64,000 nucleotides of DNA from Gammaproteobacteria bacterium (GTDB lineage Bacteria > Pseudomonadota > Gammaproteobacteria > Arenicellales > Poriferihabitantaceae), in the NCBI GenBank assembly GCA_009842505.1, contig VYFG01000139.1:1-64000 (forward strand), in the 5' to 3' direction. How positions within the stretch are numbered: position 1 is the stretch's first letter; each line of letters starts with the position of its first letter. The notes beneath the pieces are model-generated. The model saw only the letters and a list, made by a program, of their open reading frames with translations. It was not told the origin of the DNA and did not search any database. Of the stretch, positions 6,482 to 8,827 are shown one piece after another. Made by a program: the position numbers and the translations under genes.

Positions 6482-6611
6482 CCAGGAATTCTCCGCCCCG
6501 GGTTCGCTCAACCGAGGAACATCGATCAGCCCGAGCGTCCAGTCCAGCTTGCGCCCGGGGGAAGCCTCCTCTCAGGAATCAACCGGTCCGAAAACTACCT
6601 GGCAGGGCGCA

Positions 6612-7502
6612 TCAGGAGGATTGGCCAATGGGAAACTCAAAAGGAATGACATGAATTGACTCCAAAAACACCACGATGTCCCGGATAGCATTCCAGGCCT
6701 CATCAAAATCAATCGACTTCGGAAGGGTTGGATCGTTCTCGTAGGAAGACCGTGTGGTATCAAGGTCCTCTTCGAATGACTGGAGCCCCAGGCAGTCAAT
6801 CAGACGGGACTTACATGCGACTTGAAACTCCTTGCCGGCGGCAATCCAGAATTCGTGGTCATCAAGAGACCTTACACGACGAATTCTGGCAATGTCGAAT
6901 ACATCCTTCACCCGAACGGCCTCACCGGGTTTTGTAACCTTGGTGCGATATGCGGGCAAAGAACTGAGAAACGCCCGAAGCTTCTCACCGGTGATACGTT
7001 CCAGGGTATAGGCCCAAACGGTCGCCTCGTTCATTCTCAGAGGAGCAATGGACCCTTGCCCAAGTGCCTCGGGTGCGGCGATGTCCAGCGTTATCGATGG
7101 CAAACCCAGAACGCGGGGACGGGTGTGGTCGATAATAGAAATTCGTACATCGTACGAATCCCAGCCTCTCGGATGCAATCGAGGAGGTCTTGGCTTTACA
7201 TGAATTGTCTGAAGAGAATACTTTACCGGAGATTGGCTCTGGAAGTATCGAGAGATCGCAAGTTGGAGTTCGCGTTCAAGTATCTCCTGTTGGGTCGTGC
7301 GATCGGGCGTCGATTGGACAAAGCCTTGCAGGAGATTGCTGTCGATATCCAGAGAACGTCTCCCGGGTTCCTGAAGACGTTCGTTCAGTACGTGTGCCCC
7401 TTTGAATACAAGTACAGACTGGAGAGGAGCATGCGTCAATAGAGATTCAAAAATCTCAAGCAGTACTTCTTCTTTCCAATCTTCCGCATCAGCACGATTC
7501 AC
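6612..7502 (-). CDS. abiEii-like: AbiEii/AbiGii-family nucleotidyltransferase toxin
   Basis: FKGAHVLNERLQEPGRRSLDIDSNL resembles the KGG/A-xxL...R.S.DIDF nucleotidyltransferase signature of AbiEii toxins; in operon with an AbiEi-like gene. Confidence 0.75.
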   Translation of the reverse strand: MNRADAEDWKEEVLLEIFESLLTHAPLQSVLVFKGAHVLNERLQEPGRRSLDIDSNLLQGFVQSTPDRTTQQEILERELQLAISRYFQSQSPVKYSLQTIHVKPRPPRLHPRGWDSYDVRISIIDHTRPRVLGLPSITLDIAAPEALGQGSIAPLRMNEATVWAYTLERITGEKLRAFLSSLPAYRTKVTKPGEAVRVKDVFDIARIRRVRSLDDHEFWIAAGKEFQVACKSRLIDCLGLQSFEEDLDTTRSSYENDPTLPKSIDFDEAWNAIRDIVVFLESIHVIPFEFPIGQSS

Positions 7503-7505
7503 TTG

Positions 7506-8486
7506 TTACGGGACCTCAAGACCCCAGCCATGGTTCGGGTGACTGAATTCATACCCTGGAAGAAGGGAAATCATTGCGGCTGCCTGGTCTTTGCTGTGTT
7601 GACTACGTATGCGATAAAGGTAGCGACGCAAATCAGTGTTGAGCTTGTGTTGTAGATGATCGTGTAGCATGAAACCTACACGACGGGTCAATCGCTGGTC
7701 CTTGATTGTTCTCAAATGATCCAAGATACGCTTCTGGTCGAGTTCGCCTGCCGCATTTTCCCACGCTTCAAACACGACAGATGGGCCGCCACAGCTCAAT
7801 GGACGATCAAGGGTGTCGAGTAGTGTTTGTTCGTAGGTGGTTATGGAAAATACCGTCTTGTCCGTGTAGTAGCGTTTCTGGATACCAGGTACCCGTGTAC
7901 TTTCGCGATTCGTAATATAGTAAGGAATTCCGTGATAGAGAAATTGTTGTCTACCGAGGCGATTGCGCTTTTTTGGCGCGCCCGTCGAAGGGATTCTGTG
8001 TATGGGTGAAATGGATGGAGCCTTGCGAGGTCGGGACGAAGTTTTGGTTATCCGGGCAATGTGGTGATGTGTCGGGATTTGTGTCGAGAGATTATGAAAT
8101 TGGACTGCGGTGAAGTAACAAACTATGCCCTGGGACACCATCGCCTGAAGGAGTTCAATAGGATTCAGTTCGGAGGTAGACCCATTCAGCCCGATGGAGA
8201 AGAATTGTGCAGGTGACTGGTTATCGGCCGAGTCAATATGCGATACCCGATGTACGAGTCCGCTCCTGAGGAGGAACTCCAAGAGCGCCTGTCCGGAGAT
8301 GTGCCTGGTGCCCGGGTGAGAGAGCCGGTCCCGGATCTCTACGAGTTCCCGGATCAGGGCAGTCCTGGAGATGCAACGAACGGTGGGGTACTTCGAGGAA
8401 GGTGAACCGAAGGTCTTGGAGAACTCTGCCAGGATGTTCGCGAAATGATCGTCCTGAGTTGTTGTTCTTGGGGTAGTCTCACCCAC
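7506..8486 (-). CDS. abiEi-like: AbiEi-like antitoxin / transcriptional regulator of a type IV TA system
   Basis: ORF directly upstream of the AbiEii-like toxin (3-bp gap); size and position fit AbiEi. The track start (8549, TTG) reads through a perfect palindrome; GTG at 8486 preceded by AGGGG with 7-nt spacing is preferred. Confidence 0.6.
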   Translation of the reverse strand: MGETTPRTTTQDDHFANILAEFSKTFGSPSSKYPTVRCISRTALIRELVEIRDRLSHPGTRHISGQALLEFLLRSGLVHRVSHIDSADNQSPAQFFSIGLNGSTSELNPIELLQAMVSQGIVCYFTAVQFHNLSTQIPTHHHIARITKTSSRPRKAPSISPIHRIPSTGAPKKRNRLGRQQFLYHGIPYYITNRESTRVPGIQKRYYTDKTVFSITTYEQTLLDTLDRPLSCGGPSVVFEAWENAAGELDQKRILDHLRTIKDQRLTRRVGFMLHDHLQHKLNTDLRRYLYRIRSQHSKDQAAAMISLLPGYEFSHPNHGWGLEVP

Positions 8487-8489
8487 AAG

Positions 8490-8540
8490 GAATCCCCTGA
8501 AGCTAGGCTCTTGGCCCAAGAGCCTAGCTTCAGGGGATTC
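8490..8540. repeat. perfect palindrome 1 (25-bp arms, 1-bp centre)
   Basis: GAATCCCCTGAAGCTAGGCTCTTGG-C-CCAAGAGCCTAGCTTCAGGGGATTC, checked base by base. Confidence 0.98.
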
Positions 8541-8549
8541 GATTGTCAA
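8521..8549 (-). promoter_or_regulatory. predicted sigma70 promoter P1 of the abiE-like operon
   Basis: Minus strand TTGACA (8549-8544), 17-bp spacer, TAGGCT (8526-8521); -10 lies inside palindrome 1. Confidence 0.6.
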
Positions 8550-8597
8550 GCCCGAAATGAATCCGGGAGTTTTCTGTTAAGTATCAAGATGATGTGT

Positions 8598-8649
8598 ACA
8601 CAGACACCCCGGTATGCTTTGGGCCCAAAGCATACCGGGGTGTCTGTGT
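8598..8649. repeat. perfect palindrome 2 (26-bp arms, no spacer)
   Basis: ACACAGACACCCCGGTATGCTTTGGG|CCCAAAGCATACCGGGGTGTCTGTGT, checked base by base. Confidence 0.98.
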
Positions 8650-8657
8650 CCTGTCAA
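8629..8657 (-). promoter_or_regulatory. predicted sigma70 promoter P2 of the abiE-like operon
   Basis: Minus strand TTGACA (8657-8652), 17-bp spacer, TATGCT (8634-8629); -10 lies inside palindrome 2. Confidence 0.65.
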
Positions 8658-8827
8658 GTATTTCATTGCATAAGTCCTTCGGATCAAGGAAAAGTCTGCA
8701 TTACACGCCAATTGCAGGAAGTCTGACCAATTCAGGGGATTACATTCCAAACATCCCTACTATCTGGTCGGATTTTGGGTGAATTGCGAAAGTCAGATCG
8801 GAATTCTACTTCATGGAATCGAGCAGG

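Follow-up and report, generated by a model that had tools for sequence, protein, structure and literature searches.

Autorepression of AbiE operons by AbiEi proteins, acting through long inverted repeats, has been described in several systems (PMC3985639, PMC7319586, PMC11062541). In Streptococcus agalactiae, the site bound by AbiEi consists of two 23-bp inverted repeats, 3 bp apart and with 4 mismatches, that cover ~49 bp over the promoter; this promoter has a 17-bp spacing and its transcription start lies 26 bp ahead of the ATG (PMC3985639). Rv2827c binds two pairs of inverted repeats (PMC7319586). With respect to the possible structural fates of such repeats, an Escherichia coli promoter that is shut by cruciform extrusion has been described (Horwitz and Loeb 1988, as cited in PMC6060812), and template switching is established as a process by which imperfect inverted repeats become perfect (PMC7202029; see also PMC6060812).

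The window analysed here, a stretch of 64,000 nucleotides from a Gammaproteobacteria bacterium (contig VYFG01000139.1, positions 1 to 64,000), contains two exact palindromes upstream of an AbiE-like operon on the minus strand, i.e. a proximal one at 8490-8540 (25+1+25 bp) and a distal one at 8598-8649 (26+0+26 bp), separated by 57 bp, precisely where the initial annotation had placed them. Both are candidate operators, having promoter geometry on the minus strand and counterparts in related loci. About 2e-10 such palindromes are expected by chance per 64 kb, and none with arms of at least 14 bp is present in the 64-kb window beyond these two. A search of the window's genome gave no further copies of them, two candidates (on C119 and C37) being rejected as short chance matches. 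It is very unlikely that the palindromes are an assembly artefact, because both are internal to a 65.8-kb contig and have non-palindromic flanks, and because the same architecture is found again in Malonomonas rubra DSM 5091 and other genomes.

Each of the two palindromes holds a sigma70-like promoter reading into the AbiEi/AbiEii operon. In the distal promoter, the -35 hexamer TTGACA (8652-8657, minus strand) is 2 bp outside the arm and is followed, after a 17-bp spacer, by the -10-like hexamer TATGCT (8629-8634); in the proximal promoter, TTGACA (8544-8549, minus strand) is 3 bp outside the arm and is followed at the same spacing by TAGGCT (8521-8526). This arrangement had been recognised in the initial annotation and is borne out, except that the start of transcription had been predicted to fall at the dyad centre, whereas the dyad is ~28 bp past the -35, i.e. 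at about -2, so that +1 is expected ~2-4 bp downstream of it (at about 8510-8513 and 8619-8622, minus strand). The proximal dyad is 29 bp ahead of the GTG start codon (8484-8486, minus strand). The Shine-Dalgarno sequence AGGGGA (8493-8498, minus strand), six bases ahead of the GTG, is inside the right arm of the proximal palindrome, a feature that the initial annotation does not mention; it would be hidden in a hairpin in read-through RNA and partly free in RNA starting at the dyad.

The first gene of the operon (7506-8486, minus strand, GTG start) encodes an abiEi-like antitoxin/repressor of 326 residues, and the second (6612-7502, minus strand) an abiEii-like nucleotidyltransferase toxin (DUF1814; PF08843, E 1.3e-12). 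The abiEi-like protein has an AbiEi_1 C-terminal domain (PF09407, E 1.9e-5, over the cut-off; PADLOC AbiEi, E 1.3e-18). Judged by these family matches, the operon is of the AbiE (type IV toxin-antitoxin) kind, as had been proposed. The N-terminal part of the abiEi-like protein has no Pfam match; its predicted elements (H10-26, E38-40, H41-55, H65-75, E78-81, E95-98) are in the order H-S-H-H-S-S, which, with modest confidence, appears to fit the winged helix of AbiEi. The structure model is of low to moderate confidence (mean pLDDT 48 for the whole protein, 65 for the domain). The best structural neighbours of the N-terminal domain found using Foldseek are winged-helix domains, none of them below E 0.001; neighbours of the whole-protein model (pLDDT 48, poor) are not taken as proof.

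The abiE block (window 6482-8827) is located between convergent xdhC and guanine-deaminase-like genes of a purine-degradation cluster. The same two genes are ~29 bp apart in a congener (G003), which thus represents the empty site and implies the insertion of abiE, palindromes included, as a piece of at most ~2.3 kb. Neither a transposase gene nor a recombinase gene was seen in the block. About 5 kb from it, the window also encodes DruA, a Druantia anti-phage protein (83-1285, minus strand; PF14236; PADLOC DruA, E 7.5e-187).

Profile and protein searches gave nine further loci of the same AbiEi clade, i.e. those from Malonomonas rubra (L010), a Verrucomicrobia metagenome-assembled genome (L011), G577 (L014), G1041 (L031), G1326 (L037), G1407 (L038), G1446 (L040), G1451 (L041) and G1525 (L042). 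Identity to the window protein is 31-41%, these values being from the clade alignment, of which L042 is not part. PF09407 matches 7/9 clade members, and an abiEii homologue (42-50% identity) adjoins abiEi in every related locus tested. Most of the loci are from metagenome assemblies, and no close relatives of any single locus were found. The G1525 locus is excluded from the counts that follow, its palindrome being a contig-end fold-back. Seven of the eight remaining related loci have one or two perfect palindromes of 46-56 bp directly upstream of abiEi, the exception being G1407, which has a 24-bp palindrome only; a second upstream palindrome is absent in L011, L031 and L041. The G1525 contig (C48; L042:1-2604) ends in a fold-back with 78-bp arms whose position coincides exactly with the abiE palindrome. 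This points to short-read assemblies being broken by such palindromes, and further members of the group may be hidden for this reason. Upstream of the Malonomonas palindromes, L010:2645-3696 encodes a helix-turn-helix protein and a Fic-like protein (PADLOC matches PDC-S04/SoFic), which we take to resemble the 'mobile mystery' A/B pair.

Protein searches gave no relatives in plasmids and phages, and a profile scan none in viral contigs; when 399 genomes of the window's phylum were scanned for the palindrome pattern (TTGACA, TATGCTTGC, GCAAGCATA), none matched. Matches to similar patterns in viral contigs, in L028 (16-bp arms) and L033/L034 (18-bp arms, then a terminator), were judged to be different elements, without abiE. 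The latter two (L033:13519-13557 and L034:466-504) have TTGACA, next a perfect palindrome of 39 bp whose core is TATGCTTCG, and lastly a terminator-like hairpin; such an element, which has no abiE nearby, would yield a transcript of ~40 nt.

The window included, the set comprises 13 long palindromes in 8 loci, all of 46-56 bp (arms of 22-28 bp, spacers of 0-3 bp) and positioned over a -35/-10 pair. Their arms pair without exception by Watson-Crick rules (336/336 pairs, with 0 mismatches and 0 G.T pairs), and complementarity drops at once to the chance level beyond the palindrome ends. An exact TTGACA is present -1 to +3 bp from the arm in nine of the 13 (binomial tail 4e-24), with a 4/6 match in the other four, and the distance from the -35 to the dyad is 26-28.5 bp in 13/13. 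At the G1326 distal and the G1446 proximal palindromes, a convincing promoter is missing at the expected place.

When the palindromes are aligned on their inner core, the core and the outer arms behave very differently. The common inner ~10 bp is TATGCTTGC..GCAAGCATA; in the direction of the dyad, the half-site usually reads TATGCTTGC, of which the window, G1326, G1446 and G1451 have variants. Core identity is 37/49 (76%) between the two palindromes of one locus and 67% between loci; outer-arm identity is 21/77 (27%) within a locus and 25% between loci, as compared with 26% by chance. The outer arms are thus without common sequence, yet perfectly complementary. The initial annotation had proposed comparison with other abiE promoters as a check for covarying arms, and the outcome is strongly positive; its proposal that the shared inner core is the probable operator is consistent with the core identities. 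By contrast, its assumption that 22-23 bp of core would be enough for a protein site does not agree with the known AbiEi sites, which are long and even doubled (PMC3985639, PMC7319586).

Each palindrome, then, covers a sigma70-like promoter, beginning at the inner edge of the -35 and ending near the ribosome-binding/start region. Members of this rare AbiE clade have kept the architecture but not the sequence of the outer arms. The plan of a ~50-bp inverted repeat is itself already known for AbiEi; what is new here is that the arms are constrained to self-complementarity alone. Less certainly, what is kept in the outer arms would be the ability of a strand to pair with itself rather than any sequence.

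In a background sample of 1.12 Mb from three genomes (the window's genome, M. rubra and G577; arms of at least 20 bp, spacer up to 4), no palindromes with arms of at least 20 bp were found outside abiE. In the window's genome, the longest palindrome after those of abiE is also perfect and spans 40 bp (18+4+18; L062:12383-12422, contig C20), directly upstream of the Shine-Dalgarno sequence of an 85-residue ParD-like antitoxin; no perfect palindrome is present in six plasmid relatives of this ParD-like gene. In other AbiE families of the class, long palindromes are either absent or imperfect (in some, 18/22 as in L015, 19/22 as in L023, or 17/22), the latter in line with the published imperfect AbiEi operators.

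The best reading of these observations, to which we give tentative preference, is that AbiEi represses its own promoter through a core operator and that this promoter is gated by the formation of a DNA hairpin or cruciform. By analogy with characterised members of the family, the AbiEi-like protein is likely an autorepressor that occupies the shared inner core symmetrically, in which case a symmetric dimer or pair of the protein on the core, covering the -10, would be the repressor. Repression via the core does not, however, account for the arms; with less assurance, a need for the DNA to pair within each strand may be what preserves them. The dyad, at about -2, would be inside the transcription bubble, and promoter opening could nucleate hairpins in both strands; negative supercoiling behind polymerase would be another way of nucleating them. 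In the cruciform state, the -10 and the start site would be inside the arms and the promoter off, whereas in the linear state TTGACA-N17-TATGCT would work. On this view, expression of the operon would be held down by AbiEi on the one hand and by local DNA topology on the other, and the two tandem promoters would each form such a gate.

Rough estimates of the supercoiling free energy released on extruding 46-56 bp are 13-15 kcal/mol at a sigma of -0.025 and 27-33 kcal/mol at -0.05; a 24-bp palindrome would gain only 7 at -0.025. The values for 46-56 bp are around the commonly quoted cost of a cruciform, and it follows from the estimate that the observed palindrome lengths are about where extrusion may become affordable. 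Several points nevertheless count against structural gating. Extrusion is slow for palindromes of ~50 bp whose centres are G+C-rich, GGGCCC being an example. Every pair is perfect, although a graded structural function should get by with less, and a copying mechanism is the simpler explanation of this. The G1407 locus, with its short palindrome, and the two palindromes without a convincing promoter also do not fit readily.

The main rival explanation, which we consider unlikely overall, is passive perfecting by template switching, in which only a core of ~20 bp is functional, and hairpin-mediated copying of arm onto arm extends the palindrome outwards until the -35 or the start region would be overwritten, leaving the outer arms functionless. 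At one stroke, this covers the perfect pairing without G.T, the unrelated arms, the sharp ends and the termination of the arms at the -35. A core with a tiny loop or none is ideal for hairpin formation, and the ParD-like operator of the same genome is likewise a perfect palindrome of 40 bp, whereas its plasmid relatives are not. If general, however, the process should touch other operators, and the 1.12 Mb of the three genomes has no other arms of at least 20 bp. Arm length is uniformly near the maximum, rather than spread between the core and the limit, and it is left unexplained why all the arms reach the -35 and none includes it. Left-to-right copying would give TTGACA..TGTCAA, which is seen in 0/13. 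Furthermore, near-perfect AbiE repeats elsewhere remain imperfect, e.g. in S. agalactiae (4/23 mismatched; PMC3985639) and in L015 and L023. Structural gating and such copying may operate together, selection maintaining the palindromes and copying their perfection.

It is improbable that the arms act principally in RNA, i.e. that read-through RNA carries a hairpin of ~26 bp which masks the ribosome-binding site or is a target for cleavage by RNase III, while RNA from the operon's own promoter, starting at the dyad, is hairpin-free, so that the toxin operon is silent under read-through. Protection of a similar kind operates for some transposase genes. The ribosome-binding region of the window is unpaired at 6% in read-through RNA versus 43% in RNA starting at the dyad, the equivalent values being 0 versus 70% in G1446 and 24 versus 87% in G1326. 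Against a role in RNA, G.U pairs number 0/336 (probability 3e-8 were 5% wobble tolerated), the Shine-Dalgarno/start region is outside the arm and accessible in Malonomonas, G577 and G1451, and the distal palindromes precede no gene start. An RNA hairpin, one of the roles suggested in the initial annotation, is therefore weakened as the main one. With selection at the RNA level unlikely, the DNA level is left, that is selection for a hairpin or cruciform, or arm-to-arm copying.

Quite improbable too is a plain long operator, in which AbiEi would read the whole half-site of 23-28 bp by sequence or DNA shape, the symmetry being perfect because the bound monomers are identical. The known AbiEi half-sites of 23 bp, forming pairs of ~49 bp over the promoter (PMC3985639), are near the 46-56 bp seen here, but within one locus, where a single protein presumably binds both palindromes, the outer arms are alike only at the chance level. 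A mobile-element end (as the initial annotation had allowed), a recombination site, a telomere-like hairpin site or an assembly artefact is very improbable indeed, for while the abiE block is inserted between two genes that are ~29 bp apart in G003 and the G1525 contig ends in a fold-back at its palindrome, the palindromes of eight loci lie within contigs, are found only at the 5' end of abiE and always in a fixed promoter register, have no copies elsewhere in the genome and are accompanied by no transposase or recombinase gene in the block.

Core repression combined with structural gating thus remains the preferred reading. A wider proposal, possible though on the unlikely side, is that the palindromes represent a natural, phylogenetically widespread class of promoter in which selection acts on strand self-complementarity rather than sequence, and in which cruciform extrusion of its own promoter gates a toxin-antitoxin operon, such that DNA topology, as altered by replication, transcription or phage-induced changes, would set toxin expression together with AbiEi. 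Regulation of natural promoters by cruciforms is a proposal of long standing that has few clear examples, if any; the retention of perfect self-complementarity while the outer letters vary freely separates structure from sequence. If the proposal is correct, DNA topology may be a further signal to which a phage-defence toxin-antitoxin system responds. Should passive perfecting prove right instead, the loci provide a clean natural record of how template-switch homogenisation shapes operators.

Of the systems with which the palindromes can be compared, hot spots of quasipalindrome correction (PMC7202029) are alike in that imperfect repeats are made perfect by template switching, but those concern a mutation process, whereas the present palindromes are candidate regulatory elements. 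The E. coli promoter of Horwitz and Loeb, as it is cited in PMC6060812, is alike in that its palindrome, located at the promoter, could silence it on extrusion; as cited there, it is a single E. coli case, whereas the present sites, as candidates for such control, are natural and recur in several lineages. The promoter of Rv2827c-Rv2826c of Mycobacterium tuberculosis is similar in that two sets of 23-bp inverted repeats are upstream of an AbiEi-like antitoxin (PMC7319586). Those repeats are, however, sequence-related and 13 bp apart within a pair, whereas the present pairs are fused, near-zero-spacer perfect palindromes with unrelated arms. AbiE of S. agalactiae and its AbiEi operator are also closely comparable, the AbiE of a Streptococcus suis ICE (PMC11062541) being similar. 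Both S. agalactiae AbiE and the window operon have a bicistronic abiEi-abiEii arrangement, a ~50-bp inverted repeat over the promoter and a 17-bp -35/-10 spacing, and the S. agalactiae transcription start, 26 bp upstream of the start codon, is at a similar distance to that of the window dyad, 29 bp upstream of the GTG. By contrast, S. agalactiae has one pair of imperfect repeats (4 mismatches in 23), the perfect part of which is the outer 11 bp. In the clade described here, the repeats are perfect and often in tandem copies, TTGACA is just outside the arm with a tight -35/arm fit, and the shared part is the inner core, the outer arms being unrelated between sites.
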